DNA of 48,353 nucleotides from Saccoglossus kowalevskii (taxonomy: Eukaryota; Hemichordata; Enteropneusta; Harrimaniidae), in the NCBI RefSeq assembly GCF_000003605.2, contig NW_003113963.1:228293-276645 (forward strand), read 5' to 3'. This document shows positions 2,338 through 48,353 of the stretch, one piece after another; position 1 is the stretch's first letter, and each line of letters starts with the position of its first letter. A program made the position numbers and the translations under genes. The notes under the pieces were generated by a model that had not been told where the DNA came from, did no database searches, and saw nothing but the letters and a program-made list of their open reading frames with translations.

Positions 2338-5300
2338 GTTAGTATATTAAGTACTATCGAATTAGTTACAAATTGGGTGACCTATGGGGTCGCACAACCA
2401 TATATATGTATTACGTCATAGATGAACATGAAATACCTGATTGGACACTACAAGATAAATTAACGACACTAAAGGTGATTTGTGAAACATGCATTGTATT
2501 ACACAATGACAGATTGCATGAAACAATTTACTGCTGCTGTTGAAATAAGTAGATTGTGTATTTAATCTTTGAAACACGTTACAGCATGTGTATGGTATAT
2601 CAGCTTTTGTAATCAACATATATAAAGTTTGTTCATGTATTTTGTTTTAATTGTGGGTGTCTGTAACACAGTAATATTTTGAAATAGGGAGACTTCCCAG
2701 GGTCACGCTTGAGTAGAAAAAGCGCACAATAATGACAGCAGTGTGATGTTAGGTGTGTTTATGCAAGTTTTTACGATTGGTCATTACAAGGTGATTGACT
2801 CATTGATAACAAAGGTATCAAGAGTATAAAGCTTGGCGGAGTTGTAGTATTGCTTTGGAAGACGATGGAACTGAGGATGTGTCTTGCATATTTATTGAAA
2901 TAAGCGTGACATTATTCGTGAAAATACATACCCCGATATTTGATCCCCGGTGCCACATAACAACAACATCTTACCATAATGGTATTACTTTATCATAATA
3001 CGTATTACAATTCTTCTTTTATTTTGACTTTAACGCTCATATACTCAGCTATTACAGTAAACCGTATTTTCAACTGGATGGTTAAACATTGTGTGATTCA
3101 TAGTTCATTCATAGCATTATTCACTGTTATTTCTAATCTAATGAAATTAAATTAAAAATACTGACTCATATAATGTGACTCTCACTAGGAGGGCAAACCA
3201 ATAATAATGGAGATGATCGAATATTTTGGCTTGTATGAGACGCTAATGTTGCTATCGGAATCTACATACATGGTGAGTTAATATTTGTTAGAACTTTTGG
3301 AATTAAATATTATATAATTAGTAACCTGTCTTTACCATTCGGTAATAGATGGTTTTATTGATTCGACAAAATTAAATGCTTTTGATATTGACCCTAAGTG
3401 GCCAACTCTCATACTACGTTTCCATTGAACATTTTCTAGAATGATCCTCAAAGAACATCAAATCTGAATCTATGTATCTGTGAAAAACCAGATGGAACGA
3501 CAGAAACACTGAATCTCTTAGAAGACGATGTTAATAGGCGTTTTCCATTACCCATTGAGGATGGTTGTCACGTATCTGTAGTTATACATGGAATAGAGCA
3601 TGTTCCAAAACAGGTCAACACATTTCTGGAAAATCACACTATTCACACGTTGATCATTAGTAAAAGTGACATCACTGACATGGACACAGTACGAGTGTCA
3701 CATGCCTTGGGCATTTCCCGTGCTTTATCATTCGACCCAACAGCAATTATGTCATGGCTGTTGCCGACAGTAAAAACTATTTCTTGCATCGGTGTAGATA
3801 TACCAGTACCATGGTATCTAAATTTCCCTGGATCACTACATAGTTTAAATATCCGAAATTGTTCTCTTAGGGCAAAAGCGCATGATTCAAAATTATCTTC
3901 TGGGAGCAAGAATACGTCAGATTCACTGACACCTGAAAAGTATATTCATGTCTGTTGTGAGGGTCTTGTAATGCTGTGTTTGCGTAACAATGGTCTTGTA
4001 AAACTACAGGAGGATCTCGGACTAATTTCAGGCTTGTCTGAAATTGATGTCCGTGATAACTGTATCCAAAGAATTCCCCCGTCCATTAGTTGCGCAACCA
4101 ATTGCACTGATATCAAGATTCAGGGCAATCCGGTAGCAAATATTCCATGTGATATAATAGGGGAAGGTAGAGTTTCCATAATGTCATATTTAAAGGAATT
4201 TCTGTCCAAGTCTAGAGTGATAAATGATTCAGTGAAGATGGTTATTGCTGGTCATGAAGGTGCTGGTAAAACCTCACTCCTTAGTGCACTGAACGACCAC
4301 TCATCTCCTGTGGATAAAACCGATGGCATTGATATTTCAGAAATTCACCTGCGAGACAGCGGGAACAAACTTATTGTGTTTGACTTTGCAGGTGATGTTG
4401 ATTTCTTGGAATCGCATTCATTGTTTCTCACAGATGATACAATATATGTTGTTGTCTTTGATCTCAGTAAATTTGCTTTAGGCGAAGTGTCACGTTCTAA
4501 CATATGTATGCACCAGTTGGGAAGGGTGGTGTTGTGGTTGCGAACAATCAACACTTCTGCACCTAATTCACGTGTTATACTTGTAGGAACACATGCCGAC
4601 GCCCCTATGCTGGCAACAACAGTGTTGAATCATATTTGGCAACAGTTTGCTGATATTTTCAACAAGGCGCATGTATCTCACCGCCAAAGCCATCGCATGA
4701 ATATCTTAACAGATTGCATCATGTGCAGTTATACTCATAATCCCCAGCGGCAGAGCTCTTTCAATGGATTGGCAGGATATGTGGAATGTGAAGCCCGTGG
4801 TGAAACTGTCCCTCAACAAGAAAAAGATGATGCATCTTCAAATGGGGATAATCTTTTCTGCTTTCCACATATAGTGGGATATTATGAAGTCAGTAGCACT
4901 ATGGCTTTCCCTGCCAAGGTATTAACCCGTAAAAACAGAAGTATCATTCAGTTGAAAGCTGCAATTGAGAGAGTGGCTTCTGAAATGCTAAGTGTGCAGT
5001 CCGAAATCCCCCAGACATGGCACACATTGCAAAATACACTTAAAGCACGACAAATGATTAACCCATCACGACCAATACTAACATATTCAGAATATCAAAC
5101 AATTGCATTTGGTATTGGCATCAGAACAGCAGAGTCTTTGCACCATGTTACTAGCTTCCTAGGTAGCAGAGGTTGTATTGTTTACATCAAACCATCACAT
5201 CAGAAAGAAGCTAAAAGTATTGTTATTCTGGATCCACAATGGCTAGCGAATATACTCAGGATGCTGATTTCTTTCAGTTCCACGTTTATAGACGACTTTG

Positions 5301-6634
5301 GTGTTCTTAATGTTGAGGACCTTCATAATGCATGGGGTCACATCGACAAACAACACCACCATCCATTACTGTCTCTACTGACAGCAAGCAGGATCTGCTT
5401 TCCGTTTGACAGCATAACCCGTGAGTGTGGGATGAATTTTACAAAGTTAATCTTTCCTTGTAAATTGCCAATAGGTGAGCCATGCTTGGATGATTGGCAT
5501 GCATATCCCTATCCTGGTGATTGCCAACTCAGTTATTTATACCAATTTGACTTCTTACCGCCCGTCTTTTTCTGTGACACCATAGTCGGGGTAAATAAGG
5601 CAATTAGCTTCATAGATGATCCAATCTTGTACCGAAACAATATGGTGTTTCGAACGGAGGGAGTCAGGTTGAGTTGCAACAGGTGTTTTGGCCAACGGTC
5701 AGGAAATTCGTTGCATGGTATCCGTCTTCAGCTTTTGTACCAGAGCAGCAGCATACTTCTCACAGTGAGAGGTAAAAATGCATGCTGCGTCATACTTAGT
5801 ATTGATGCAATAATAAGGGAAATATCTTCCCGGCCATCTTACAGCGGTGTCATCATGAAGTCATCACCGGCATGTCCACTGTGTGTGGTGAAACGTCACG
5901 ATCCACCAGGACGCATTCAATCTACAGAGTCAAATGTAGCATACGTTTGTTCTCTTTACAAGGGTCATATGTTTGATAGTTGGGATGAGTTGATTCACTG
6001 CCATGGCATTCAGCGTCACGATATTAGCACGCTCTTAACCCTCAAAGACGACTTTGAATACCCACGATTGTTTCTTATTCTTCCTATAAACACGGGTGGT
6101 ATGTCAACCACGGAAATCATTAAGAATAGCGCGTTCTCTCATTTCCAGGATGGTTATGCTGTTCATTTGCTCTGTGAATTTGCAGGCAGTCCACATTTTA
6201 TTAATTCACTTGGGTACAGAATCTATAACGTAAAAGAATTTGTCAAAGTTTATGGCCCTCACATATGCAAAGTGTTGATCCTACTACAGAAAGTAGTTGG
6301 GCTCAGCACATCCGTTGCTCCGATTGATTGCGTCCCTGTTGGTAAGACTGTTTTGACGTCATCCACAATGACACTCGGTAGAGCCAAAAATCTTCTTACA
6401 AACTACCTACATGATTTTGAAGCAGAATGTCCCGAAATATCCAAGACGGTGAAACGACCTTTCGAGGAGAATATAAACGAAGTGCTGAGGTGCAAGCATA
6501 CAACCAAACGTAAAGAATTTGTTCGATTCCTGGGTAAAGTTGACGAGAACCGCCGGTTTGGAGATCTGTTCCCAATTTTGCAAGGAGAAAGTGTTCATTG
6601 GCTATGTGAGGAACATGCAAATATATCAAAATGA
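2239..6634 (+). CDS. ankyrin-LRR-Roc-COR (ROCO family) protein, 3' part of gene
   Basis: Three phase-0 exons are visible: 2239-2337, 3189-3272 and 3440-6634, ending in TGA. They encode 1124 residues of the C-terminal part. The order is one 33-residue ankyrin repeat, a short linker, leucine-rich repeats, a Roc GTPase domain (P-loop GHEGAGKT, DFAGD, GTHAD), a COR domain (LDPQWLANIL) and a C-terminal region with PRLFLILP and FVKVYGPHICK blocks. ROCO proteins are large multidomain GTPases in which Roc and COR always occur together. LRRK1 has the same ANK-LRR-Roc-COR order followed by a kinase, but no kinase is present here and the frame stops after a helical tail. The 5' exons are missing from the window. 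The cellular role cannot be read from the sequence. Confidence 0.88.
3189..3272 (+). CDS. ROCO gene exon: short linker after the ankyrin repeat
   Basis: This 84-nt phase-0 exon lies between the acceptor CTCACTAG and the donor GTGAGT. It encodes 28 residues beginning EGKPIIMEMIEYFG, probably the capping helices of the ankyrin array. It is in phase with the exons on both sides. Confidence 0.65.
3440..6634 (+). CDS. ROCO gene terminal exon: LRR, Roc, COR and C-terminal region
   Basis: A single 3195-nt exon follows the acceptor CATTTTCTAG and carries 1064 residues. Counting from its first residue: LRRs at about 170-247 (LRNNGL, IRIPP-like turns), P-loop GHEGAGKT at 271-278, switch-II-like DFAGD at 315, base-recognition GTHAD at 383, COR start LDPQWL at about 597, and the conserved block after COR (PRLFLILP) at about 875. 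The last 90 residues look helical. They could be a death-fold domain (CARD or Death), but I cannot confirm that. There is no kinase domain. The first ATG in frame lies well inside the exon, so the reading frame is entered by splicing. Confidence 0.88.
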   Translation, partial: NDPQRTSNLNLCICEKPDGTTETLNLLEDDVNRRFPLPIEDGCHVSVVIHGIEHVPKQVNTFLENHTIHTLIISKSDITDMDTVRVSHALGISRALSFDPTAIMSWLLPTVKTISCIGVDIPVPWYLNFPGSLHSLNIRNCSLRAKAHDSKLSSGSKNTSDSLTPEKYIHVCCEGLVMLCLRNNGLVKLQEDLGLISGLSEIDVRDNCIQRIPPSISCATNCTDIKIQGNPVANIPCDIIGEGRVSIMSYLKEFLSKSRVINDSVKMVIAGHEGAGKTSLLSALNDHSSPVDKTDGIDISEIHLRDSGNKLIVFDFAGDVDFLESHSLFLTDDTIYVVVFDLSKFALGEVSRSNICMHQLGRVVLWLRTINTSAPNSRVILVGTHADAPMLATTVLNHIWQQFADIFNKAHVSHRQSHRMNILTDCIMCSYTHNPQRQSSFNGLAGYVECEARGETVPQQEKDDASSNGDNLFCFPHIVGYYEVSSTMAFPAKVLTRKNRSIIQLKAAIERVASEMLSVQSEIPQTWHTLQNTLKARQMINPSRPILTYSEYQTIAFGIGIRTAESLHHVTSFLGSRGCIVYIKPSHQKEAKSIVILDPQWLANILRMLISFSSTFIDDFGVLNVEDLHNAWGHIDKQHHHPLLSLLTASRICFPFDSITRECGMNFTKLIFPCKLPIGEPCLDDWHAYPYPGDCQLSYLYQFDFLPPVFFCDTIVGVNKAISFIDDPILYRNNMVFRTEGVRLSCNRCFGQRSGNSLHGIRLQLLYQSSSILLTVRGKNACCVILSIDAIIREISSRPSYSGVIMKSSPACPLCVVKRHDPPGRIQSTESNVAYVCSLYKGHMFDSWDELIHCHGIQRHDISTLLTLKDDFEYPRLFLILPINTGGMSTTEIIKNSAFSHFQDGYAVHLLCEFAGSPHFINSLGYRIYNVKEFVKVYGPHICKVLILLQKVVGLSTSVAPIDCVPVGKTVLTSSTMTLGRAKNLLTNYLHDFEAECPEISKTVKRPFEENINEVLRCKHTTKRKEFVRFLGKVDENRRFGDLFPILQGESVHWLCEEHANISK

Positions 6635-8372: not shown

Positions 8373-8499
8373 TTAGTAGTCGATTTCAACTGTTGCTCGG
8401 AATCCTCTGCCTTGGATGGATGCGTCTGATTGGAAGGTGATCCATAGTTCACCGGACGATGATTGTAATACTGGTGGAGGCTGCTTATCACCACAGAAT
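8373..8499 (-). CDS. protease exon 16: CUB4 end and stop
   Basis: The acceptor is TTTAATAG. The exon encodes [21 protein letters not shown] and [10 protein letters not shown], then TAA at 8375-8373. The protein ends with the last strand of CUB4 and has no C-terminal tail or membrane segment, so it should be secreted. Confidence 0.9.
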
Positions 8500-11400
8500 C
8501 TATTAAACAAAAAAGTAACATTGTGAAAACCACGGAAGTGACGTTGCGATGACAAGTGACGTTGTACACAGATTTAAACAGCGCATGTGTTGCGTTGAAG
8601 TTTTAATAATTTCCAGGTGAACTTTTAATATATTTAAAAGAGTATTGTGACTGATTGTATACTTAATTAACCAGTAGCTTACCTTCCCATAGATTCGTCA
8701 CCACCATCACTGATATCAAGAAAATCAAACCGACAATTCTCCTGATTTTCGAGATCAAACACTTCGAATTTCAAACGAATGGTTGTACCAGTGATCTTCC
8801 ATACACAGTCCATTTTGTTGGGATAGGAATTTGGGTAACCCGGGGACTCGAGAGTACCAGTTGTACCTATTAAGATAAAACAAAAACAATACGTTGAATA
8901 ATTTAAAACGGAATATTTATTCAAAAAACAACACTGGATTTTACAGTATGTTCTATGCATGTTGTGTGATGGTTAAAGCCTGTCTGTTCCCTCTAGTAAA
9001 TTTGCACTCAAATTTGCACTCGGTTCGCACGTCTTTTATTATCGGTAAAAACCAAAGGTAGATAAGAAATAAGTGTAGGCAACTGTGGTAACAAGCGATG
9101 AAGGTCCATAGTTAGCCACACATTGTCCGATTCTTTAAAAACACGTTGACAAAAACATTTTTTGTTTGCGAGGCCTAACAGTTACTAAGATCAATAAACA
9201 TGGTATACAGTGGGTGGTATTAGTAATGGTAACTAGTCAAAAAAGCTAGACGTTTCGAACAATGTTCCTTTATGGAAAATATAAGTATGTCTTGATGATC
9301 AGTACGTTCGGGATGTTCATAAACGGGTCTGACAATATATCATTTGCGGGTTACTGTGTCACGTGGTATTTTTAGTCCATACGTCATAATTATCCACCAT
9401 TGTGTCATCCTCGTTTGTAGTAGTGATACTAAAATAAATGCGATTAATTTACCAGTATTCACAATATGGGGGTGGGGCATCTTGAATCTAAGCCAAATCG
9501 AAACAAACATTATCTGTTTAAATTCGAACCAGATTCAAGATATAGTAAATATTGATAACTAATCTTATTAATATTATTATCATTTGTACGTCTGTTGACT
9601 GTGCATGTTATGCACAAATTTCGAACGAGCTTGTATCACGGATGTAATCGAACAACACGTCACATGCAAATAATGAAGTAATTGTATTGTCTGCGGTGTC
9701 ATGGGATGACTGTATCGTTCATTAAGTTGGTATTAGAAAGATTCCGGGAAAAGATTAGACTAAACATGACTCCGAGGCGGGTTTATTGTCCGGTTCGTCG
9801 GACCTATAGATAATGCGTTATGCTTGGTCACGTGATATGCGAATTGCAGCTCATGAATATTACTAACATCTCACACTTTACGTGAGACACGAGTCGTTTG
9901 TTTGTTCGTGATCACTCTCCATTTACACAAACACTGCCCTGCTTCGTATTTTAGCCATTTTATAACTTTTTATTTTATTTTCACTAAACAATGTAAATAA
10001 GTATACCTAGACGTCTAACTTTTGTAATACCCGTACTTACCGTTGAAAATACCACCACAATGTTCACTTGCACTCTCTTTTTCCTTCATGAAGTAATCCA
10101 TGACAAATAGGCCCTCGTGTGGCCACTCCGAATGAAAGTGAAACCAAACCACCTGTGAGTGTGTGTCGTGACCACCTGGCCAATCAGTGGGGTTACATAT
10201 CCGTATATAACCACCTTCCGGTCCATAGCCTTGGCGGACAGAGATGTAATCACGACAGTCGTCGTTGGATTCCGGCCATATTAGAAAAATCAATCTAATA
10301 AAATGAAAAGTATTAATTGTATTATGTTAATTGGTTAATATATGCACACTAGCACCACTTCGCAAAGTTTGTACGCCAAGTTTATAATAATTAAGTGATC
10401 GCATCGTAGTCGAAAAATGGGGGTCATTTTTATTTCCAATAAAATCAAGTACGTTTACAACCAGTTGACTAATCCACTGAAATGTCTCTTATTGAAGTCC
10501 GTGGGACCGAATAAATTATGCTCATCGGACTCGTATGATCTAATCGAGTTAGAAACCCTTCGGATGATGGTGGTACGGTGATGCGTATCTTAAAAATCGG
10601 CATGTCTATATTTCCAATACCCGGATAATGTAAAATATAAAACGCAGACATATTGGTATTAAAAGGGAAAGGTGTGGAAAGTCACAGGTGAAGCGTGTGG
10701 TGTCACCACTGAGAGTGGCTCAGCGTACAGCAAATGAATGAATACGCAATGAGGTACGCCGCGCCCTCTATTGATGAAGCACTTCTGTGACGTCAATATG
10801 ACGTAGATGCGTATGACAATGTCGTTCAGACAATCCAGTTTGATTGTGTAGTCGTTCGCTATTTAGAATTTAGCAAATTTTTAAAAACAGTATTCATGGA
10901 CGACCACAGTTAAAAACAACATCAAAGCTGTGAACAGTGTTCTTGACCCTAAATTACGTCATAAAAAAGAACAATGTAGTGTTGCATACCCCACGGAAAT
11001 ACTGAGATGTTCGGGTGCAGCGATGCTCCACACACAGTCCAGTGTGTTGTTGTTATCGCGGGGCAGACTGGGAGAGTTGAACGCAGCGTCGTGTTCCGTG
11101 TGGTGTCCACCGCACGCATAGATCACTAAAAAAACAAAATAAGATACGGAAAATAGAAAAAAAANNNNNNNNNNNNNNNNNNNNNNNNNNNNNNNNNNNN
11201 NNNNNNNNNNNNNNNNNNNNNNNNNNNNNNNNNNNNNNNNNNNNNNNNNNNNNNNNNNNNNNNNNNNNNNNNNNNNNNNNNNNNNNNNNNNNNNNNNNNN
11301 NNNNNNNNNNNNNNNNNNNNNNNNNNNNNNNNNNNNNNNNNNNNNNNNNNNNNNNNNNNNNNNNNNNNNNNNNNNNNNNNNNNNNNNNNNNNNNNNNNNN

Positions 11401-14400
11401 NNNNNNCCTCCCGCTTTAACAGAGAATAGTAGAAGCTGCACGGCATCCAAACATAGCTCATATCCCTAGAACTCTGCTAACCACGGTAGTGCGATCAATA
11501 AGATGAAACACTTACTTTCACAACCTTTCTGGTCTTGTTCTAAAATGTAACCAGGGTAACACGAACACTGATAGCCACCCACTGTATTGGCACATCGCTG
11601 ACTACACCCACTATGTTTCTCGTCATCACATTCATTTTCGTCTGTTGAAATACAATGTAAGAATTAGGGAAGTTCGTGTACGATTGTCAAAAAAATCTTA
11701 GAATTTGACCGCTGGTGGCACTGTTCATACACCGGCATTATTTAAGCTCACTTTAAAAAAAGATTTGATTTTATGATAGCCGTTTGAGGGTGATATTTAC
11801 AACCATTTTTGACTTGTATCTATGCGAGAGGAAAAAATCCGCTCGCGATGGATTCGGGTGGCGCGACGCATTTGGTTCGAAACAAAATTGTTGAGGGTTT
11901 GTAACTGTAAAATGTATACAGTATTTGAACACACGAAAGTTGAAACTTTAGTAACGATATTGTAGTTATTACAATGAATCAAACAAATAAATAAATATCT
12001 TCATCATGTCAGTTCATCTGACCACAATTTTTCGCGATTTTCCACGATTCTTGAGAAAAAAAAAAGGCTTTTAGTACGAAAACGGGATATTTCTTTATTT
12101 AAAATGTATATAATCGTACTTGATTTTGTTTGGGTGGTCAAAACGACCCGGACTCTATTTGGCATATTCCACGAGTTCGTTTTTTGTTTTGTTCAAGGCT
12201 CTTGCCCCTTTATTTGTCTGTATGCGTCACTACTATGTCGTCCGCCATTGCGGCGCCAGCATCCATGGCGCCCTCACACGACAATCTGTCTAAACGTGAT
12301 CACTTTAAAAGCAAATGCGTTTTGCCAAGCGACACTGTTATCAGGACTAAACATGTAAGCTTCCTGTGAGAATCACAGCAATCAAAACAGCAAACAAATT
12401 TTTCAAAATTCCCGATGTATATTCACTGGCAAGTTATAAACAGTTGGGGAAAATTTACGTTGAACGTGAGCCATGACCAGTAATATACTAGTAATGTGCT
12501 TGAATAAACACTGTTGTGCATACCGTGGAGGTGAAACAAACAAGTGAACAATAAAACTACAAAACGAACGTGCAAAAATATGATACAGTCAGTATCATAT
12601 TTAAATATGAATTTTGCTTAGCATTTTCCGCAAAATAGAAATAATTGGCAAATCCCACTCCATAGACACGAATCAGTGAGTGTGGACGTTGTTATCAGCA
12701 TATTCACTGAACTGTAAACACATGAGCAATTCACATTTTACTAGGACCCTTGTATGGGAAGCTGTAAACTCGCAAACAAACAATTGTAACAATTACATGT
12801 AATCTCTTTCTATAAATAAAGACCATGTTCTGAAGAGTGTAATTGACATTCCAATTTGACGCTACTTGGACTGATTCAAGCACTCGCGGAATGTTGGAAC
12901 GCGCACGCCCCTTTCCAGTCTGTTCTATTTAGCCGATACTGGCGCTACTATTCAAAGTACGAGTTGTAGGTCAGTCTGACAAACTTCAATAAACAAATAA
13001 CGAAATATATTTTTCAAAGGCTTCAATAATACATTCCAACCATGTACCACCATTTTTATTTAGCCTATCACGTGACTACCTTGCAGGTACATATTTCATA
13101 TGAAGTATCGCAAAAACGTTGTTGTCTGTTGGTGTTTTTTTATATACACGAGTCAGTTAAGTATACGGATAATAAACCAACTTCACACGAACCCGTGCGT
13201 TGATGGCGTAACACTAATTGTAAAGATTTGAGGCTGTGGCGTAAGTTTGGTCATTTGCATATTGATATTGACACATTTTATGAAAAATCTCGTGAAGATT
13301 TGGGCTCAGTATCAGACCTAGCAGTTGAACAAGAAACGTGTGTTACACTTGAATTTGGTGAGCAATACTCACTTTGCTCACACTCCAGTGATACTCTAAC
13401 TGCGAGAAATGAGCTCTCATATTACACCGATATTCTCCGTTTAATACTAGAAGTACACGTGATATTGCTCCATTCGTGTATGTCATCTGTATCGTATGAC
13501 GTCATACTGATAATATTTGAACCTAGTGTGTGTCGATTAACCAGTCGCCGTAGGATAAATATCCAGAGGCATTTTAGAGGTTACACATGCAGTACAGTGT
13601 AATTACTAGACTATGTATGGTATGGGCGAATTCTGGGGGACATGCCAACAAGCTTACCCGGAGCTGTAGCTATATACATTTTGAATCTGGCACGATCACA
13701 ACAAAATTAATTGTCATTATTGTCGAAGATTTAACGATTGGATTGACATCACTTGGAACCACGAAGCTATTGGCCAGCGAGTACTACGGCGAACGCGTTT
13801 GCTATGACAGCACTTCGCGGATATTCGAATTTTCGAATCCCAGAAGCAAACACCTAACGGCATATTCCAACTAGTCTGCAAAACCCTGTGCAACATTAGT
13901 GGTGTTTATCGGAACGTCATAAAACCGACCGCTTTCAAGGGGGGAAAGTATGACCCATGTGAGAGATGCTGGTGAAAGCCTAAAACGAGTGGAAGAAACG
14001 AATGAGCGCATGCGCCAATTAACTGACAACTTCCAGCGAATGCAAGAGGACATACAATCCAACAAGGACTTTCTAATTCGAAAAACGAAGAGACTGAATA
14101 GGATTGCTGTTAACTTGCATCGCATGACAGGCCAGGTAAAGGAAATTAAAGAACAGCTCAAAGTGTTGAAAAAAGACTTGGCGGAGGAAGAGGAAGAAGA
14201 AGAAAGGATAAGAAAATTAAGACCGTGGCTCAAGAACTGAGTGTTTCGTAGTTTTGGGATATCATTATCGGCAACGGGTTGTGTGAGAATTGAACACATC
14301 ACACGGTACTCGAGACACTTTGTAAGACTCGGTTTAATAAGGGTGCAATTAAACGAGTAATTCACGATGGAGGGTGATGCGGCTATTTCATTGCCAGAAG

Positions 14401-17400
14401 CTGAAGCCAAGTACGCCAGCCTCCAGCTACGACTCGATAATTTGCGTGTAATTGTTGAAGACTTTAGCAGAAGAGTGCGGGCGAGAAAGGGGATAGTAAA
14501 GAAGCTCACTAAAAAATATCTGTCAGTGAGAAAAGACGTCAGTGCTATGAAAGAAACGTACGCGCAGGTCACTGGTCGGTTGACGGAGTTGGAGCGACGC
14601 GGCCGTAAAAGTAGACGCCGCTACCGAGAAATGAACGTACAGTACGACGTGTTTGAACTGATTTCAATCCCGGAAGTTAAGATTGAACGAATGATGTATT
14701 TTATTAGTGAATTCTTCAGGATTTTAAATCATATGGTAAATAGGGACCAAGTCTCGGCGATTGAAAACGCGCAGTTGGATCTCTCGGCGAAAAAAAAGTC
14801 GGTGGAAAATTTACATCGCGACATTGCCGTGCGGCTTGGGATGGACGACGAGAGGATGGAACAGCTCAAAATTGTATACAAAGCGTACGAATATGTATTC
14901 GATTCCGAATCTTTTAAAGATCTTAGTGTTTTGCGTGTTTCGGAAGTCTCGCGCATGCTTGACGCCCTCAACATGCCGACTGACACGGATGTGGGGGAGA
15001 CCTTTCGCCTCGTAATCACTTTGGCATGTATCTACGAACACCCAGAATTGCTGAATTGTCTGAAAGAGCACCAGAAAGTTTTGCTTGTAGCCACCTTGTT
15101 CGGATGTGGTGGAAAACCCGAAACATTGGTTTCCATGGAGCAGTCCAAACAGGACCAGGATAAAAAAGACACACAATGCAACGATAAAGAAGCCACCTTG
15201 TTCGGATGTGGCGGAAAACCCGAAACATTGGTTTCCATGGAACAGTCCAAACAGAACCAGGATAAAAAAGACACACAATGCAACGATAAAGAAGCCACCT
15301 TGTTCGGATGTGGCGGAAAACCCGAAACATTGGTTTCCATGGAGCAGTCCAAACAGGACCAGGATAAAAAAGACACACAATGCAACGATAAAGAAGCCAC
15401 CTTGTTCGGATGTGGCGGAAAACCCGAAACATTGGTTTCCATGGAGCAGTCCAAACAGGACCAGGATAAAAAAGACACACAATGCAACGATAAAGAAGCC
15501 ACCTTGTTCGGATGTGGCGGAAAACCCGAAACATTGGTTTCCATGGAGCAGTCCAAACAGGACCAGAATAAAAAAGACACACAATGCAACGATAAAGAAG
15601 CCACCTTGTTCGGATGTGGTGGAAAACCCGAAACATTGGTTTCCATGGAGCAGTCCAAACAGGACCAGAATAAAAAAGACACACAATGCAACGATAAAGA
15701 AGCCACCTTGTTCGGATGTGGCGGAAAACCCGAAACATTGGTTTCCATAGAGCAGTCCAAAAATGACAAGGATAAAAAAGGCACACAATGCAACAATAAA
15801 GAAGTAGAAATGACATAAGTACATTGTAAATAAAAAACAAACATTTCCAGTAGCAGTTTTTAGTAGAATAAATTGAAACACGACAATCACATAAACGACT
15901 TACCAATGCACATTTTTTGATCGTGTGCGAGATAAAACCCTTCTGGGCATTCACAGAGATAGGCGCCCTCAAGGTTCTTACAGGTATGTGAACAGCCGCC
16001 ATTGTTTTCAAGGCATTCATTGACGTCTGTTGGCAAAACACAATAATAACTTAAACTTTAAACAGTTTTCTTAAATGTGCATCTCTGTCATATCAGGTGA
16101 CCATTAACGCTCTTGCTCATTACATTACAATCTTAAAGAAAGGGTAACATATTTAGGTGATTAGAAAACATAGTACAATCATGTCGCATTCTGATTCTGT
16201 CGATGTTTATGTTTTCCGTTTTTACATACCTGTGCAGTTTCTGTTATTCGCGGCGATAGTGTAACCCCCTCGACAGCCACATGCATATGTACCGATCAAG
16301 TTCAAACACGCAACCTCACAGCCTCCATTGTTAATCTCGCACTCGTCTACGTCTGTATCAGTGGATATAAAAATGATTTGTCAAAATTGATCAATAAATA
16401 ACATTTCAATATGCTAATGAAGAAGGGCCATTGCCTGACACGTATAGATATACTGAATAGACACTTAGGAAAACTACTAATCGGTGAACACAATCGTTGC
16501 GCCGTGCCATGTCCCACGCGACGTACAACGCGTGTCGAGTACAGTGTTTGCCGGTTTGTAACTCAAACCTGTTGACTGTGACGCTTCTGGATAACAATGT
16601 ATGCTATATTATGAATTTCAGCTATTAACACGACACACGAACTTGAACACGAAATTGTGATCGTATTTCCGGTATTCGGCGTTGGATTGTGGATCGTTAT
16701 GCAAAATCATGTAAAATCAATAACTGGAGATGTCTTTTTTACTAGTATAGCCCCTCAGTCGTCACACCGCACCGTGTTTGATGTGGGTCCCATTTGTTTA
16801 CATTAAAAGCAGAATGACAACAAGTGTTGCGATTCAAGATTCCCGCGATTTTGCCAAAACTACGACTTCCAGGGGGCACGACTTGGCAATTTAGGGCTTG
16901 GTTAATTGATTTTAATGAATTGTTTTTTCCCAATTTACCTCGAGCCACGTACGTGGCAGCGAACCTCATCGTCTGGTCCGCCTCTTTCAGATCTACCGAG
17001 TGTAGTCGCAACCGCAAGTGAGGGCCGCTGGATGCCACGCCGACATTTCTCTGTGACTGGCACAACTGAGTAATCACACCAGATTCAATGTCATCTCCAT
17101 CAATGATTGTGAGGTAGTTTCCATGACAACCAACCCCATTGTCGACTGAAAATAACAACCAAGGAATTAAAATCATTATAATTAGAATTGCATTTAACAC
17201 ACCAATATATTTTAAATTCGATCTCGTCATCAACTTACTGGGTATGAGTAAGTCCTCTATTGCCATAGTAACGATGAAGCCTTCCGGAACAGATATCTGC
17301 CAAAGACAATTTGTTTCAGCTGGGAATGATAACGGGTAGTTCAGACTTTGAATAGAACCAGCCAAGTCAGTCAATACCTGTCGGCATGCTGGAAAAAGTT

Positions 17401-20400
17401 AAAAAAAATGCATTGAAATTAACATATCTCGCGACAACCATCGACATGTTTAATAAAGATTTTTAGAAGTACGTATGTTTTTGAGATATGTAGTGGATTG
17501 GCACACAATTCAGTTGTACATTCACAGCCCACACCAAAGTCACCAAACCAACTTACACCCAGATTTGAAGCGAAGAGAGAATCCAGCTTTGTCGCCACGT
17601 TTGATATTTCCTGCGTGAAGCTTCAACCAAAAACTATCCGCGTCGGCAACGAAATGGTCTGGTTTATTTTTCCCACAGTATCGACCAATCAATGGCGCCA
17701 ATACGCCTTTGCCGTGACGTATTTCTAGATAATCATCGCCACAAGTTCCGTCGGCAGAGGCTGTAGATGAAATAAATACTCCCATGTTATAGATTAAATG
17801 CTCGTTCAGATCGGATTTATGGGTATGGGACAACAGGTGCATTGTATGCGCGTATTTTTTAATTTTTTTGAGAGAGAAACAAATTTAAGTTTAAGGCCGT
17901 TCAAACTGGTTCCGGAGAAGTCATAGTAAAAGACTTTTCTTGGTGGAATTTAAGTTTCTTACATCCGACAGTTGCGTACGGCATCAGCCACCAACTTTGT
18001 AATAGTTTTAATAGTTGCTTAGAACAACGATTACCAAATATTATCTACTACTAGTATATACCAACCACAATGGGTGTTTTTTCCGTCAAGTGCGAGATCT
18101 CCCATATTGTGTGAAAGGCGGACAGAACATCTACCACATAAATCGAATGATTTGAATTGGAATTTTTTCATAGCTCAATGTCGAAATGGTGATCTTTCAG
18201 ATGGTAACATGACGCTGAAATACTCTTACTTCATCAAATTTGACCATCGTCAAATTTGTATAAAACAGTGTTAAGCGTTGAAATACACCCAAAATACTTT
18301 TGCGTTTGTCGAATCACACGTTTTTTCTTCCCAGTTTTAGTGTATCACGTACGCCATTTCACTACAATAACATTACCTCGCAAAACATAGTTCGCGATAA
18401 AATGGTTCGTATTTACGTTTTTACTGAAGTCTGACACTAATAAATAGTTCGGATGTCGCATACGTTTTTTTTTTCCATTTTTTGTAGTACGTTTTCAGAT
18501 GTAACAGCTACAGGAAAATGGCCGTGCGTAGTGAGGTGATTGACCACAAAATTGAAGGCTGCCTGTGGCAGAGGCACTATTGCGTAAAGCGCAATGGCCT
18601 CTGGGAAGGAGATTGCTTTGTGCAGTGATAATAACGCTTATCGAACTGTGCGGAGTTCGACTTTTTGCTTTGCCATGAGTGCGTTCGAGTCGTAGATATA
18701 TTGGTCCGTTGCTATGCGAGCGAAACTCGTATAAAATGTATAAAATTTATTTTGAAATCACGCCCACTAGCATTTTATGTTTGAGAAAATTACCTAAACA
18801 CCTTTTTACCTATCGAGTTCGTAGTTCGCTATCTTTTTCCCAACATCGCCCAGTTGTGACGTCATATATCAGTCGAATGAAAACTGGGCAGGCGCGAAGC
18901 GTCCGCGTCACCCCGATGCAAAGACGCGAACATTCTCCTTCCCAGAGTTCCTTGCGGTTAGATCGCCGAAATAACTCTGCCTGGGAGATTGCGAACGCGT
19001 CGACGATTTACATCTACGTCTCCTACCGCAGGATCTACTTTTTCATTATTTTAACATTTTGAAAAGATTTTAGCATTGAATGTAAAAATATTTGATATAT
19101 TATTTTAAATAACACACATTTTTTTCAAGAGAAACTTAGGATATATAAAACAAATGAATTTAAAAAAAACGCGGAATACCAACAATTTTGGTGTAAAATG
19201 TCGCCTGTGGCAGAGTCTAGTTGCGGCTCTCTGTAGCTCCCTTGGTCAAGAAGACTCTTCAAGAGAGAGTGTGTTTTTACGTTCGATTTCACGCATAACG
19301 CGTGATCTCGCAGTGAACGGAAAATGGTCTATTATACCAGTATCGTATTATTAACATACCTGGTACGTTGAAATACTTGAATTCCATTGTCACAGTGAAA
19401 CTTTTCTGTACGGAGATCGTCCACGTGCAAGTCTGGTTGCTCGGATACGCATGTGGGTAATTTGGTGACATCAAGTTTCCCTCCGTGCCAAAAATTGTTC
19501 CGCCACAATCTGTAAAATGAGAAATGTTAGTATCTTCATTTAATAATATACGGTGGCGCTTTTCCGTCAAATGGCGCTAGCGACAAACAGCGCCGCCACG
19601 TGACGTTCCTTTGGAAATGTATCGGAAACACGTCCAAAACAACGATAACAAGGCAAACAAACTACGACAAACCGGAGACACGGTGACAGTTGTACATAAT
19701 ATTGGTCTGTAATATATCCTGGTCGCTGAGTCCTTGCCTCTGTCCAATACTGGCACTAACATTTTTAGGAATCAGGGTTTCCTCGCCAGTCATCGTAAAA
19801 TACCTTTTGCCATAGTGCATTACAGAGTCGTAGTCGTATGGCTGATCTAGTGAATCCACCTAAAATGAACAAATAAACAAAATAATAAAGAATCTGAAAA
19901 AAACGGGTATAGATAGCTGCACCATGTGCGTAATATGCTATTTTGTATTATATGCCGCAACGTGGTCAAATTAAATCTCTCTTCCAGATAAATTTCTGTT
20001 CACAGAAATCGATTTGATTTTAAACTTGCATTTCTGTTTTATTCAGTGTCCAAATGCCGATTTGTTTGAGGGAATATGACGTTGGGATACCCTTATTCAC
20101 AGTCCCTCTTTCATCTAACGTAAAGCGTATGCCAAATGCAACATTTGCTTTATTTACAAGATATCTGAGTTAGAAATTGTTAGCAAGCAGTCGAACATGC
20201 TGAGCATAGAGTCATAAAGCGCAAAGACCTATGGGAAGGAAATTGGGGCTAATTGTGTTGGCGTGTTCCAAATAGGGTTCGAAACAGCGCTGCAAGTCGG
20301 AATTTTGGGTATTCCAGATAAAAAAAAATCAGTCGAGTTCCGACACACGCCTTAACTGTTGATTCCAGTTCATGACTCACTTCACTATACATTTGTATAT

Positions 20401-23400
20401 GTTAAAGACACATAACGCGAGATCTCGCAGTCGGAACGCAAAATGAGCTATTGTTGTCTCCGACTTCAGAGTGTGTTGTGATTACTCGCGTACTATTACA
20501 TACACCGAGTCAGAGAGATGTGAATAATAACAGCGTGGTCATGGAATGCCCAGTCTGGTGTAGAGGTCGCTGTCCGACCATCGAACTTTGCTAGACGTTT
20601 AAGGTTGAGAGAGAATAAATCACGAACAACGCATAATAGAAATGTAGTGTTGTTGAGTTTAGTTGATTTACAGTGTTTATGTCATTGCATAATAACTGTC
20701 AACGCGACACGACTTCCACGTCTACAGATAATAAAAAAAAAATGACACCAACCTCAGATCGTCCTAATTTATCAAAATTATATCTTCCATGAGGCCATAT
20801 GTGTTCTGTCATGACGTCGACGTAGTCGTCTCTGTCAGGCCTGTTCTGCTCGTGCCAGAACCCAACGGCATGGCCTAGCTCGTGTACAAGAACTCCGAAC
20901 GTCTCGCAGCCAGGACCCAGCGAGAGGTATTGTTCACCTGTTCCGATACGGCCAACATAAGAACAGCAACTGCAAGTAGGAAACAGTGTTAAGTATTGCA
21001 CTGGTAAATTACATTACCCCTCCAATATTAGTTTCCGCTCATTTCCTACATTATAAATATTCTTGCTGTAACCGCGACGCACCAAAATAGGCCGTGGCTT
21101 ACAATAATAAATTTTGCAAAGACTGTAGAATAGTCTGAGCATGCGGCCATGCGAAATTTGCTGGAAATACAAGACTATAGTAGTGTATGACGAAGATATT
21201 TAGCAATGGGCCGTTATGATACAACGACCACCGGGCTTAGTTTCGGAGTTAGATTTTTACTTATTCGGAAGGTAACGTATCCGATTAAAAACCGCCTGTG
21301 TGCTTTCAGCTTATCGCCTGTATATGTGTATGCTCTTGCATTTGTTAAAGCGCCACAGCCGCAACACCGTGGTCGATATATGTCCCATGCGATTAGTACA
21401 ACGCGTGTATAAAACTTTGTTTACACGAATTCGAATGCGCGCTATGCGACCGCTGTGGTTATGCAAGTGGCGTCTACTGGGCAATATACATATATCACTA
21501 AGTAATTTCGAAATCATGTAGTGCATGATGAGGGATTCAAGTTGTTCGGGGCGCAATATATGTCCGCATATTAACATAATTTACTGTAAAAAAAATTAAA
21601 CCCACGCTCAACTCCGCGGGGTTTCAAATAGCCTTCCTTTTGATCTGAACCATTATGATATTACGTTATTTCGATTTATAGAGTGGTCATTTTGTCAAGG
21701 ACAGTGTATAAACTCGCGGTGTGTTTGTTTATTCGTTGATTCACCCCATATGTGTAACACAGTATCATACACGTACTTTCACATCGTTTTTTTTTTATAC
21801 ATTGAAGGCATTCTGCCAGCACGATAGGAGTCTGACATACTTCGTACCTGATGCAGAGCAACTGGGTCAGTAAGGGTCAAACACATGAAATCTAAGTGAG
21901 AAACGAACGTGCAACAGGGGTACAATGAGCAAACACACAATCATGTCAACAAGTGCCTTCACCTTTGGGTTGGCAGTCACGTTCGCAGAGTGTACAATTA
22001 TTCACCCGTGGCAATTCACGAAAACAGTTGTAAAACAAAGACCCACATTCCTCTGCTGTTCGATATTGCCAGCAAAATACAAACTATCAACTGACGATTT
22101 AGCTTGTCTGTGTTAATCATGAATAGAGTTACCAAGCAACATATACATTTTGCTGGAGCCAGACATGGGAGGATCCTCGATTTGAGTAAAAAAAAAAAAA
22201 AAAAACACGAGTATACATAATATCAATATAGATTGTTCACAATTCAGCAAACTTGAAAGGTCGTTAATAATCCTGTAATTGTGAATGGTACAACTGTCAC
22301 ACTCCTAGATAAAGGCTTTTATGATTATGTCAAATATTGTCAAGATCATAGGTTGTCACATTTGCGAGACCATTGCGCATTATCATTATTAATTGACCTG
22401 AGTACATTTTGGAAAAGAATGAAAACAACACGATTCTTACAATTCACCCTCTTATTCCCAAAAATACTGGGACATTCAAACTGAACACAACTTGTATGCA
22501 CCTTTAGAAATGTTTAAAAACAATGCCATTAATAACTTTAAGTCAAAACAGTACGGTAATGATAGGTTGTTTTGAAAAACTTATCTCGAGTTCACTATAG
22601 CTGACAAACATTTTAAGAAAATCAAGACTAAATTTTAAAAAGCTAAAGCGCAAAAATTAAAACAAGCAGCCTGTCGGCTGAAATAGCTCCGCTGTTAGCA
22701 ATACACATTTCAATTAAAGAACTGAAGATATCATTAGAAAATGAACAATATGTACAGTATCAAAGCAATCAGACATGCTGTTTTCAACAAGAAGTCGAAA
22801 ATATCACTTTTCATCAAAAATTACAAAAATATTCACAAAAATTAGGGAATTGAAGATATCATCATGAAATGAACAAATCTAAGAGAGGTCTACCCAAGGT
22901 ACATATACACTAAGTATCAAAGCATTCAGGCTTGTAGTTTTCAAGAAAATTTAAAGTAAAAAGTTTTCACGGACGACGGCGGACGACGGACGCCGACAGA
23001 CAATCACTCATATGATAAGCTCCGCTCGACAAAGTCGACAGCGGAGCTAAAAAAATGGTTTGAACATGATTGTTGGTCTCTTCGTAATGAAATTCGTAGT
23101 CATGCTATAATTTGTTACATAAGTATTCTTATGACCCATATTTACGTGCCAACGTACAATTGAGGTGATCTATCCAAATTTTGAAAAAATTCTAAGGAAA
23201 ATTACTAACCAGTTGAAAATATAAGTAAAATAAAACCGAAATATTAGCTATTTTTTTTTTAACCCTTACTCAACAAAAATAATAGTGCGACTCTGAGGTT
23301 GCTAGTGAAATACAGAAAAAGGAAAACAAAGCTAACTGCAGTTCAATGTTGAGTGGTCAAACCTATAAAAGTGAAATTAGGAAATGAATCTTCAAGTGAA

Positions 23401-29400: not shown

Positions 29401-32400
29401 TACGACATCTGAGCACGATCACAGAACAGAATTCGTGTATATGTGAACGAAGGTTTCAACTCTTTTAAGGTTTATTTGTACGTGGCAATATCAATAAATG
29501 TAATGGACGTGAAATTAGTTATTTATCCAACACAAGACAGACTAATAATATTTATCTCCGGTCACCCGAAAGTAGACATGTTTCAATTCATCAAAGACAG
29601 GTACTATTTCACTGCTATTTTTTTTTTATCGTTATCGCAACTCGTGGAAACAAAAGATTTTTTCCCCTATGGTGTCATTCAATACATCTGAGCACAGACC
29701 TATGGTCTCATTTACACTACAATAGTTAGATGCGCACTCAAGACTCAATAGATGCGACACTTATGTTGCGTAAACTCGGCAAGTGTGGCCGTCTGGCACG
29801 GATGCCTATACTATAACACAGACACGAAGTAATTTGACCTCAGCGATCCCAAGTTCATTTGGGTTTTTTTTCCGACAAGAATGCCAACACTTTTTAAAGG
29901 CACCATAAGTCGTTATTCTCATTGAGTATAGACGTATCTAACTTTTATTTGTCATTGTTCTGGTACATATATCTTTACGTTAATACTATAAATGATGTGG
30001 GTCTATTTGGTGCTTTACTCTCTTCGATTAGTACAGTAAATACACACTATCTTTCTTTTTTTACTCGACTCCGTTTAGGACATGGGTCAGGGGACAAACG
30101 AGGAGATGGGTACAACGATTCAGAATAGATTTCTTGTATACGTGTTTATTTCGGAAATCAGTCGCTCACTAAGGCCAATTTGATATTTTCGACCCTTTAC
30201 ACCATGACGAAGGACCCCGCCAAGTGTCATTTTGAGCTTTCAACTCAAAATATGTCGAGTATAGCTCCTCACGGCTAGACAGTTTTGTGTGAATTCAAGA
30301 CGAGTTTTCAATGACCCAAGCCCTATTACAATACCCAGCACGAACGCGGAGGTATTCGTAAGACTTACACCAGTAGACTGGAAGACAAAACATTATTTCC
30401 TCGACAGAATTAAACTTGTTCATGTCAGGAGAGAGGGACAGAAAATGAATTAAATAGATTTCCGCTTAGCATAGCACACTCAGGGGCCTCAATCGACAAT
30501 TCACTTGTATACAACGTGCATCATACAAACTCGCAGACAATGGTAGGGAAATGCCACCGGTACACACTGAAACAATGTCTTTCAGACGGCCAAAATGCGA
30601 AATTCTATCGCCCATCAAATTGGAAATTTTAGCGGAAAATTCATACCCCTTCACAAACTTTTTTGTTGGTGTGGATTATGGATTATTTGTGATACGTACT
30701 GTTTTTTTTCGCTAAAAATAGCTTTGCGATAAAAGTACTCCGTATGTCTAATTTATATTTATATATCCCACGAATATATGTGTGTGAATATTAACAAAAG
30801 AAAAGTTTTCTTTTGACATCAATCTAATTCAAATCTTCGCGCATCAATCAGATCAAATAATAACAAGTTTTGATTGGTCGGACTTTTCCCCCTGGCCATG
30901 ACATACTGTATTAATCCGCCAAATCAATGACATCACTGCGAGATTTTTTTTTAATTTATAAATAATTTAAAACGTGCGTATCTTCGCATTGATCTTATCA
31001 GTTCCATCATCGTTAAAACGATGATGAAAACATATCACGTACCCCGATCATGAGTTGAATTGTCTGTGTGGTGTGTGATATTGTTTACGTGACAGTCGAA
31101 AAAAAAGTTCATCAAACCCAATGTCTACACTCACCAACAAGGACAGCCAGACTGATGTGTTAAAAATAATCGTTGAAATTAATTGAGCGTTCAACGGACT
31201 GTGTTTGGTATCGTTAAAAGCCATAACTAAAAGCTGATGTGGCGATATGACAACATTGGCGAATGTTAAAAATGTTATCCTCGTAGAAAAAAGTAGATCA
31301 GCCATATAGCAGCTGGGAACTTAGTGTTGTTATGGAAACGGAGTCAATATGCGGAATACTGGCACACGATAATCAGCAGGCCCTATGCAGAACTTGGACG
31401 CAATTAAAATAACATGAATCAGCTCACGCATTAAACTGTTTGGAGATGTTTTACCAGGTGTACCACCAGCACAATGCGCTGACCGCTAGTTCCAACTGAC
31501 TTCAATCACTCGTCACAATAACTGCTGCTAAACACAGCGCTGACAACAACTTTCATAGTATTACACATTTGTAAAAATGGGCCACCGTACATGACGTAAT
31601 ACGAATGCAGACCTATCTCAGACGGAGTGTGATACTATCACTACGAACATAAATATTATTGGAGCTTGTTATGACATATTGTATAACGTTCGTATGATCA
31701 TTGTCATCAAACTCCGCTGACACGGGGAGATTGTATTATATTTATAAACAAGCTATCGACAATGGCAGAGTCATGTTACTTGTTCTCAAATTTGATAACG
31801 GCAGTCAGTGTGCCGTCTTTGACCCTGCACGAAGTCAGAACAATGCACAAAATGGGTCATTTTAATCACTGTTAGTCTAATAATTGCACATTCTCCCTAA
31901 TGTGGATGATGTGTACCTGGTCAGACTGTCCCAATTAAAGCGCCTTAGTTGGCACACCGCGTCGCGTTCGATATTGGTTCCATGCCGGGGTTCCATGCGA
32001 CCTATACAGCGCATATAAAAACATTGTTGACACGAAATTCATGCGCGCTGCGCGACGAGTGTAGCGCGTTGCGTGACGAGTGTAGCGCGTTGTGTGACGA
32101 GTGTCGCGCGCTGCATCACGAGTTTAGCGCGTTGCGTGACGGGTGTAGCGCGTTGTGAGTGGGGCGCGTTGCGTGACGAGTGTAGCGCGTTGCGTGACGA
32201 GTGTAGCGCGTTGTGTGACGAGTGTAGCGCGTTGCGTGACAATTTTAGCGCGTTGCGTGACGAGTGTATCACGTTGCGTGACAAGTGTGGCGCGCTGCAT
32301 GACGAGTATAACGCGTTGCGCGACGAGAGTAGCGCGTTGCGTGACAAGTGTTAGTATGTTACTTTATATTAGTATCATCAAATACTGAATTGAGTAAATC

Positions 32401-34505: not shown

Positions 34506-36530
34506 ACTGCAGTCCAAACACTATATTTTTAAAGTGACGTTGGTATCTTGACTTGCTTCACAGTGATTCCAATCACTTGCCCCAAACTTCACGATCTCGT
34601 TGTATTCCCGTCCGCTCTGCATGCAGCTGTGAGTGTGCAACTGTGGACACTGGAGGTTATTCTACTGTGGCAGGCTGGGAAGCCGGGGCTAGAGTATACA
34701 TGGCTCGATGACGTCGCACACGCCATGTGGGGTCCAATTTACACCTTTTGGGTTTCCCGCGAAACGAACGACCCCTACACGTGAGGTCAGCTACCAGTGT
34801 CCTTCAGAGTAAGATCCACTTTTAAGTTGAACCACTCTTCGCGTGACCGTGAATTGCCGCTGAATATGTATTAGCACACACCGTAGGATGTGTACTACTA
34901 GTAAAACTGATAATGTACTCCACTCGGCATCGTCGCCATGGTTACAAATAACCGATACGAACACTATAGGCACACAAAAGCGTCACCCAATATGAGTCCT
35001 GGTACTCAACACTGCACATTACAAACAGTTGGTTTTATTATCGAATCAAACAGTGCACCGTGTTTCAGTCATGCGTATCGAGCCTCAGAGCCCGAACGAA
35101 GTTCGTTTATTTGGGTTTTCCCCCAAACTCAAACCGTTGACTGCTTTCTCATGGGTATTTGTTTTGTACACATTGTACACAAGAACTGGGAATAAAAAAA
35201 AATGTGTTGACAACACACTACATGATACAGACACCTTGAAGTGGTAACCCTGTAAAGAACACGGTATAATTAGTACGGAAATTCGACTCGTACGTACAGA
35301 GCAACAAAGCAAAACAACCATGAATTCCAGCAATGAACTAACTCGTAAGATCCCAGACGCCTGTGGGGAATCATCCAACCATTTCATGCTAGTTGAAACA
35401 TCTCCTACATTGCCGATGTAAATTCTGTGAGACTGCGCTGAAATTCACTTCGCCGTTCGGTCATTGAGCTCGGACGACGATAATGCCCGGAATTACCCTA
35501 TAAACCAGCATGGTGGGACAAAAAACACTGAACCACCACTGAGACTTGTCATAATTGAAGACACTGTGCCGTTTCCTCTCATAAATTGGACTTCGATATA
35601 CAATTAACTATTAACAATATGTCCGTAGTTTATTTTAATACCGTCTGACGTTATCACTCACCGAGATGTATGCAAAATTCTAGAACGCTGGGTGATTGAC
35701 CTCGATTTCACGGTGATTCGAATAGGTTTAAAAAAGGGTTGTTTCTAGCCCTGAAATATTCATAAAAAAGTGCCGTAAAACGCATTTTTGTTCGTACTTA
35801 TTTTGTTTGCTGTTTTTTCTTCTTTCATTTGTACAATATTCTGGGGTCCCCGAATTGAAAGGTATAGCGCGCACTTTTCGAACTGACTCGAGTCTGAACT
35901 GAAGCATGTGAATGTCCGTGCGGAACGTCGTGTTTACTATGTGGCTCGCTTATAAAAAAAATGACCAAACAGAGTGTTCAAATCTCAACAATTGAATCAC
36001 CAAAAACGTGAAGAAATATCACCAAGACGAAAGCTGCAGGTACCACTGAATATTACGTACTGATGTAAACACTTGGTTTTAATTCCGCAATAATTCGAAG
36101 AATTCCGTTAATGAAAATCAAATTCATGTGAACATGGAAAATTACAATTAATGTTTCAAATTAATGAGCCCATTGAATATGCTCAAAACGACAAAATAGT
36201 TAATTTAATTACTAGTGAAAATAAATGATTTCCCAATATCATTGCACTATTGTTCCATGATAACGCATTAAACAGTATTCCGTCCGTGCAATCTTATACC
36301 GACAAAATTAAAATAACCGCCTTTCATTAAAATATCATGAACCGTCAGTTTTTTTGGAAAAACAGACCGCAGACCCAAATAATTTTTAGTCATAATTCAT
36401 ATATTTGTTGGAAGGACAATTTATTGCATTCTGGGTATTTTTATTTATTTATGACAATAATTAATCTGCAATCATATCCCCTATTATATAGATATGTTCC
36501 ATGATGTTGAGAAATACACAGTACATTCAG

Positions 36531-48106: not shown

Positions 48107-48353
48107 GGTAGTTAACTCTGGCATAGTAAAACACTTGGCTAGTCAAGCATGGTAGTTAACTCTGGCATAGTAAAACACTTGGCTAGTCAAGCATGGTAGT
48201 TAACTCTGGCATAGTAAAACACTTGGCTAGTCAAGCATGGTAGTTAACTCTGGCATAGTGAATCACTTGGCTAGTCAAGTATGATAGTTAACTCTGGCAT
48301 AGTGAAACACTTGGCTAGTCAAGCATGGTAGTTAACTCTGGCATAGTGAATCA
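48107..48353 (+). repeat. 44-bp tandem repeat running off the window
   Basis: The units begin at 48107, 48151, 48195, 48239, 48283 and 48327 with GGTAGTTAACTCTGGCATAG or close variants. The last unit is cut by the window end, so the array is longer. Confidence 0.95.

Follow-up and report, generated by a model that had tools for sequence, protein, structure and literature searches.

Does a long open reading frame (ORF) on the strand opposite a host intron represent a gene, and if so, of what kind and from what source? This question is raised by a 48,353-nucleotide stretch of the Saccoglossus kowalevskii genome (assembly GCF_000003605.2, contig NW_003113963.1, positions 228,293 to 276,645 of the forward strand), hereafter called the window, whose own numbering is used throughout. 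A preliminary description of this DNA had reported a frame of 483 codons nested in a protease intron, and we recovered it at exactly 14367-15818 on the plus strand. The frame, ORF2, starts at the first ATG 3' of an in-frame TAA and continues for 483 codons without a stop or frameshift. Its parts and downstream signals are as follows.

14367-15818, plus strand: ORF2, a 483-codon open frame with no intron
14652-15089, plus strand: residues 96-241, unique sequence, hydrophobic enough for folding, no family found
14367-14651, plus strand: residues 1-95, Arg/Lys-rich coiled coil with heptad periodicity
15090-15803, plus strand: seven-unit array, 102-bp (34-residue) units with two Cys each
15804-15818, plus strand: end of ORF2, the final four residues and the TAA stop
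15829-15834, plus strand: AATAAA, candidate polyadenylation signal by consensus only, 10 nt past the stop
15867-15872, plus strand: second AATAAA, by consensus only, 30 nt before the edge of the host intron

We conclude that ORF2 is very probably a real coding gene. With less assurance, we favor a fuller reading, in which ORF2 is a real protein-coding gene, single-copy and lineage-restricted, lying nested and antisense within the protease intron, and its product a cysteine-tailed coiled-coil oligomer that is probably tissue-restricted.

Coding signals in the unique part of ORF2

The repeat array is a poor witness to coding. Five of the six frames of its unit are free of stops, a property matched by 1 of 5000 base shuffles but equaled or exceeded by 643 of 5000 codon-order shuffles. 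Such openness is unremarkable given the unit's codons; the array is therefore weak evidence, and the case for coding rests on the unique 240 codons that precede it.

An open run of at least 240 codons is expected only 0.004 times per window at the local stop frequency (0.057). Over the 720 unique bases, three-base periodicity reached a chi of 38.0, against a maximum of 25.5 among 4000 noncoding samples. The signal was concentrated in residues 96-241 (chi 34.9), a value that none of 4000 noncoding samples reached (maximum 30.6). A position-specific base model likewise ranked frame +0 best, with a score of 8.6 compared to a best-of-six maximum of 7.0 among 2000 noncoding samples. These noncoding samples came mostly from 22300-48000, where possible unannotated exons make the controls conservative. 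A long ROCO-type frame elsewhere in the window, a likely positive control, gave periodicity values spanning 6.3 to 33.4 in 38 windows; the test can thus overlook coding sequence.

Hydrophobic residues in the first 95 positions recur with the heptad spacing of a coiled coil, at a power matched by none of 2000 shuffles, and ORF2 ranked third in this measure among the 208 stop-free segments of the window. The coiled coil of the preliminary description is thus borne out. Residues 96-240 showed no heptad periodicity (882 of 2000 shuffles). The helical domain named in that description is only plausible for them: their hydropathy permits folding. The start codon has A at -3 and G at +4. Because the most hydrophobic 19-residue stretch of the protein scores only 1.18, so that no segment is strongly hydrophobic, and because no signal peptide was seen by eye, the product is predicted to be cytosolic.

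The cysteine repeat array

The tandem array spans 15089-15804 on the plus strand, with a period of 102, 7.0 copies and 97% matches. In codon register the units begin at 15090, with no insertions or deletions between them, giving seven in-frame units of 102 bp, the arrangement of a coding minisatellite. The 34-residue consensus is matched by units 1 to 7 at 99, 98, 100, 100, 99, 98 and 94% identity, respectively, so that the most diverged unit is unit 7, at the array edge. Each unit carries two cysteines, for 14 in the array, and the tail is hydrophilic and lacks arginine. The seven near-identical, two-cysteine units noted earlier were therefore found as described. The recent expansion read from their near-identity at the DNA level holds in a somewhat wider form, as the pattern is compatible with either recent expansion or ongoing homogenisation from which the edge unit escapes.

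The host protease gene and its intron

Ten minus-strand segments were run against Pfam and eight matched; the segments at 10018-10326 and 34200-34520 gave no Pfam match. The host features are listed here.

11642-15903, minus strand: host intron, 4262 nt, phase 1, separating two EGF exons of an astacin/CUB/EGF protease gene
20702-21013 and 19665-19859, minus strand: astacin, by Pfam
17543-17884, 10962-11120 and 8682-8972, minus strand: CUB, by Pfam
16742-17374, minus strand: CUB, by Pfam
16225-16380, 15890-16057 and 11469-11663, minus strand: three EGF_CA domains, by Pfam
19292-19576, 10018-10326 and 8376-8573, minus strand: putative CUB halves, read by eye and unconfirmed by Pfam

The astacin, CUB and EGF_CA matches surrounding ORF2 confirm a protease host on the opposite strand. 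The intron extends from a GTAAGT donor starting at 15903 to a CAG acceptor whose end is at 11642. With consensus splice sites and a codon split in phase 1 on both sides, the intron looks intact. ORF2 sits between the second and third EGF exons, its whole coding sequence within this single intron, which supports the earlier view of a nested, intronless, antisense frame of coding type.

The domain order of the host over 8376-21013 (minus strand), partly read by eye, is astacin-CUB-CUB-EGF-EGF-EGF-CUB-CUB. Tolloids have a CUB domain between EGF domains. This inter-EGF CUB was not found in the host at the region of the intron carrying ORF2, and no minus-strand CUB in the intron appeared among the 14 best rows of each of two profiles built from the window's CUB halves. 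A run of 242 N, an assembly gap, occupies 11165-11406 and adjoins a host CUB exon.

Family and copy searches

Searches of Pfam, NCBIfam and PDB sequences with ORF1 (a shorter upstream frame, described below) and ORF2 returned nothing above curated cut-offs, in agreement with the earlier description of the gene as unrecognised. Library matches below the cut-offs fell on coiled coils or on the low-complexity tail. A polyomavirus coat match to ORF2 (E 0.00016) was rejected, as it lay in the low-complexity array and scored 21.4 bits, below the cut-off of 27; the top NCBIfam match to ORF2 (E 4.2e-5) was rejected too, its 23.2 bits falling short of the cut-off of 100. For residues 96-241, the only Pfam or PDB match was a sub-threshold Cdc6_C (E 0.11). 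Rfam and tRNA scans returned nothing.

The species' own genome (572,110,611 bases in 4830 contigs) was searched exon by exon, and the best candidates were scored. The unique part of ORF2 matched only itself at E <= 0.001 (5 candidates scored), and the repeat was found only in the array (10 candidates). ORF1 matched itself and one further sequence at chance level (E 0.28, 21% identity, containing a stop). Residues 96-241 matched themselves and one BTB-BACK-kelch gene, L007 (E 2.3). ORF2 thus appears single copy among the candidates scored.

Collections of viral contigs, prokaryote genomes, plasmids and phages, which exclude animal genomes by design, were also queried with ORF2 sequences. Viral contigs held no relative of residues 1-240, of the repeat or of its 29-base unit pattern, and plasmids and phages held none of residues 1-240. 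In prokaryote genomes, residues 1-243 gave 38 pattern matches, none of which was confirmed, and the 29-base unit pattern gave none. A literature search found no paper carrying the letters of the repeat motif; a search for tandem 34-residue repeats with cysteines and coiled coils found only one paper, apparently unrelated. As the species' own genome was the one animal genome covered, we can only infer that the gene is lineage-restricted.

An upstream frame, ORF1

A second plus-strand frame, absent from the preliminary description, precedes ORF2 within the same intron, which also contains its whole coding sequence.

13950-14240, plus strand: ORF1, 96 codons, K/E/R/Q-rich coiled coil in the frame of ORF2 and 126 bp upstream of it
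14241-14366, plus strand: gap between ORF1 and ORF2, without coding periodicity or AATAAA and with one ATTAAA at 14348

The open length of ORF1 is not significant, since about 20 runs of 96 codons are expected. Its heptad periodicity was reached by none of 2000 shuffles and ranked second of the 208 stop-free segments; the only higher score belonged to a minisatellite of 21 bp, a period equal to seven codons. In three-base periodicity, 58 of 4000 noncoding samples did as well as ORF1 or better. The gap periodicity was reached by 2501 of 4000, which is no coding signal, and both a TGA and a TAA stand between the two frames. Splicing of ORF1 to ORF2 was considered and rejected: the best donor, CAG|GTAAAG at 14136, is in phase 0, and the three acceptor-like sites listed are all in other phases. 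Homology between the two frames was not detectable (E 0.11).

ORF1 is possibly an upstream cistron, a separate small gene or a long upstream ORF. The ATTAAA at 14348, a variant polyadenylation signal expected 0.14 times per 126 bp, may give ORF1 its own 3' end; ORF1 may thus be a separate transcript ending near there, or the two frames may share one transcript. An elaborate form of the latter would make the locus a nested two-cistron unit, its single plus-strand transcript encoding two partner coiled-coil proteins. The tail of ORF2 would then be a new kind of cysteine-valency array, varying in length between individuals and tuning the disulfide cross-linking of a tissue-specific filament. We consider this highly improbable, and the ATTAAA lowers its probability slightly.

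A stop-free run of 249 codons, rich in Ser and Leu, lies on the minus strand at 13874-14620, across ORF1 and the start of ORF2. Its periodicity over 13874-14366 was not significant (319 of 2000), and it is probably a by-product of plus-strand coding.

Weighing the gene against other explanations

Several observations count against ORF2 as a gene. The periodicity of residues 1-95 was not significant (chi 8.3, reached by 944 of 4000 noncoding samples). The codon-aligned antisense frame, which holds 6 stops in the unique part, scored 8.3 in the position-specific model, near the 8.6 of frame +0. A codon-usage model trained on the window's ROCO-type frame together with the exons of the host did not pick frame +0 (0.003 bits per codon, compared to 0.055 for +2). 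Differences between the units gave no sign of purifying selection: mean pS was 0.040 and pN 0.030 for all seven units, and 0.046 and 0.010 for units 1-6, with a mean pN/pS of 0.74 over the seven, and the changes are too few to decide on constraint. The low hydropathy of the tail places it beyond the charge-hydropathy limit for disorder (H 0.356 vs 0.425), which speaks for the favored reading, but the result is suggestive at most, as this non-specific measure also calls the coiled-coil parts disordered. A TATA pattern was absent from 13001-13950, and an initiator pattern from 13301-14000 and 14241-14366. An Asp-to-Asn change (GAT to AAT) produces one AATAAA in each of units 5, 6 and 7, at 15567, 15669 and 15795 on the plus strand; these signals could end the transcript early and so shorten the tail through premature polyadenylation. 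Finally, the support comes from the sequence of one assembly. The locus is real as sequence and plausible as a gene; as an expressed or conserved one it is a candidate.

If ORF2 is not a functioning gene, it might be decaying or only recently intact, either as an orphan or de novo frame or as what remains of a longer gene with ORF1 as its N-terminal part, under no selection now. The shared frame of ORF1 and ORF2, the heptads in both and the TGA and TAA between them fit this account, as do the lack of relatives in the collections searched and the absence of clear constraint in the unit differences. Against it, the gap shows no coding periodicity, the two frames are not detectably homologous, and ORF2 has neither stop nor frameshift over its 483 codons. 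We regard decay or recent birth as unlikely, while a chance open frame, extended by a minisatellite with a fortuitous unit length of 3 x 34 bases, seems more unlikely still. The openness of the unit, usual for its codons, and the 249-codon run on the minus strand speak for a chance frame. The rarity of 240-codon runs, together with the periodicity and heptads of the unique part, argues otherwise, and the minus-strand run lacks significant periodicity.

An origin by retro-insertion, raised in the preliminary description, would account for an intronless frame lying antisense within an intron. In the 572-Mb genome neither the unique part nor the unit turned up a second time, and ORF1 and residues 96-241 gave second matches at chance level only, although a parent that has been lost, has diverged greatly or is finely split could escape the exon-by-exon search. 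The hallmarks of a retrogene were absent: no intron-bearing parent was found, the flanks (13200-13960 and 15819-15935) share three 8-mers but no 9-mer, showing no target-site duplication of 9 or more bases, and the longest A run from the stop to the intron edge is six, leaving no 3' poly(A) tract. Two tandem frames with heptads in an intron could also belong to a transposable element encoding a coiled-coil ORF1-type protein. The frames, however, were neither multiple among the candidates scored in the own genome nor bounded by terminal repeats, with no inverted flanks or flanking duplication of at least 9, and polymerase, nuclease and transposase matches above cut-off were absent from them. 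Because of the single copy, the flanks without a common 9-mer or an inverted match of nine or more, and the short A runs, a recent retrocopy is very unlikely and a transposon is hardly to be expected.

A last alternative concerns the unique domain, which might be a highly diverged form of BACK, the helical domain found in BTB-kelch proteins. The only other own-genome match to residues 96-241 was L007, at 30% identity over 82 residues, and none of 1000 shuffles reached its alignment score. It is, however, the best match of a whole-genome search, for which shuffles do not correct. Four human BACK regions scored within the shuffles (254, 51, 110 and 150 of 1000 reaching their scores), profile comparison gave a probability of 0.5%, or 2.9% with L007 included, and ORF2 had no Pfam match to BACK, BTB or kelch. 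As neither the human regions nor the profile comparison reproduced the similarity, the lead was dropped; we treat L007 as a chance match, the strongest that the genome-wide search produced, and think a BACK domain here barely credible.

A model for ORF2 and its relation to known systems

Under the favored reading of a genuine nested gene, ORF2 would be transcribed from its own promoter inside the host intron. The N-terminal coil would bring the protein into dimers or multimers, residues 96-241 would form a helical domain, and the tail would act as a flexible hydrophilic tether placing 14 regularly spaced cysteines. In the assembled multimer these cysteines might form disulfide cross-links or bind metal. 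Since the unit comprises 34 whole codons, unequal exchange could lengthen or shorten the tail and leave the frame intact. If ORF2 behaves like other nested genes, its expression is probably limited to one tissue such as testis. A structural role there would be the likeliest use, and one in cross-linking is a doubtful proposal.

ORF2 is probably an ordinary object of its kind, a lineage-specific nested gene that lies antisense to its host and contains a coding minisatellite. PMC3786989 puts nested genes at about 6% of genes in Drosophila, 2.1% in C. elegans and 0.5% in human. Simple nested pairs lie on opposite strands in 220 of 296 human cases (74.3%) and 193 of 248 mouse cases (77.8%), and internal nested genes are more tissue-specific, often testis (PMC8467205). 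The closest parallel is Drosophila 2mit, antisense in intron 11 of tim2 and likewise a protein-coding gene wholly within an opposite-strand host intron, with no functional relation to the host in the tests made (PMC3786989). In contrast, 2mit is characterised and conserved, and ORF2 is known from its sequence only.

For the tail, the analogy used is the male-specific structural role of the Drosophila Mst(3)CGP sperm-tail proteins, which have repeated cysteine-glycine motifs (PMC10645079). Their motif is Cys-Gly-Pro, whereas the ORF2 unit has Cys-Gly-Gly-Lys-Pro and Thr-Gln-Cys in 34-residue units that follow a coiled coil. Mammalian ODF1 is a comparable sperm protein with repeated cysteine-glycine motifs. 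The repeated Cys-Gly-Pro of Mst(3)CGP and ODF1-like proteins is absent from the ORF2 unit (CGGKP, no CGP), and the likeness proposed is one of use rather than of descent. Coding minisatellites, or variable-number intragenic tandem repeats, resemble the array in their near-identical in-frame units with the most diverged one at the edge; they differ in their length polymorphism, the ORF2 array being known from one assembly. The TPR unit is also 34 residues long. With TPR and other 34-residue solenoids, ORF2 has only unit length in common, as its units are near-identical and hydrophilic; the unit matched no Pfam repeat family, which bears out the earlier remark that it fits no known repeat family.

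If ORF2 is expressed and conserved, antisense nested genes, a known class, would gain a protein without a detected relative together with a coding minisatellite, and with in-frame units of 34 codons the length of the tail would be a testable and possibly fast-changing trait. If it is not expressed, it would be an example of a real-looking frame sitting in an intron.

Other features of the window

The ROCO-type frame is long and intronless, lies at 3650-6634 on the plus strand and carries Roc and COR-A domains by Pfam. The 21-bp minisatellite occupies 32043-32351 in 15 copies, with stop-free plus-strand frames of seven-residue period. Near the window end, at 48105-48347, lies a 44-bp tandem repeat of 5.5 copies at 96%.

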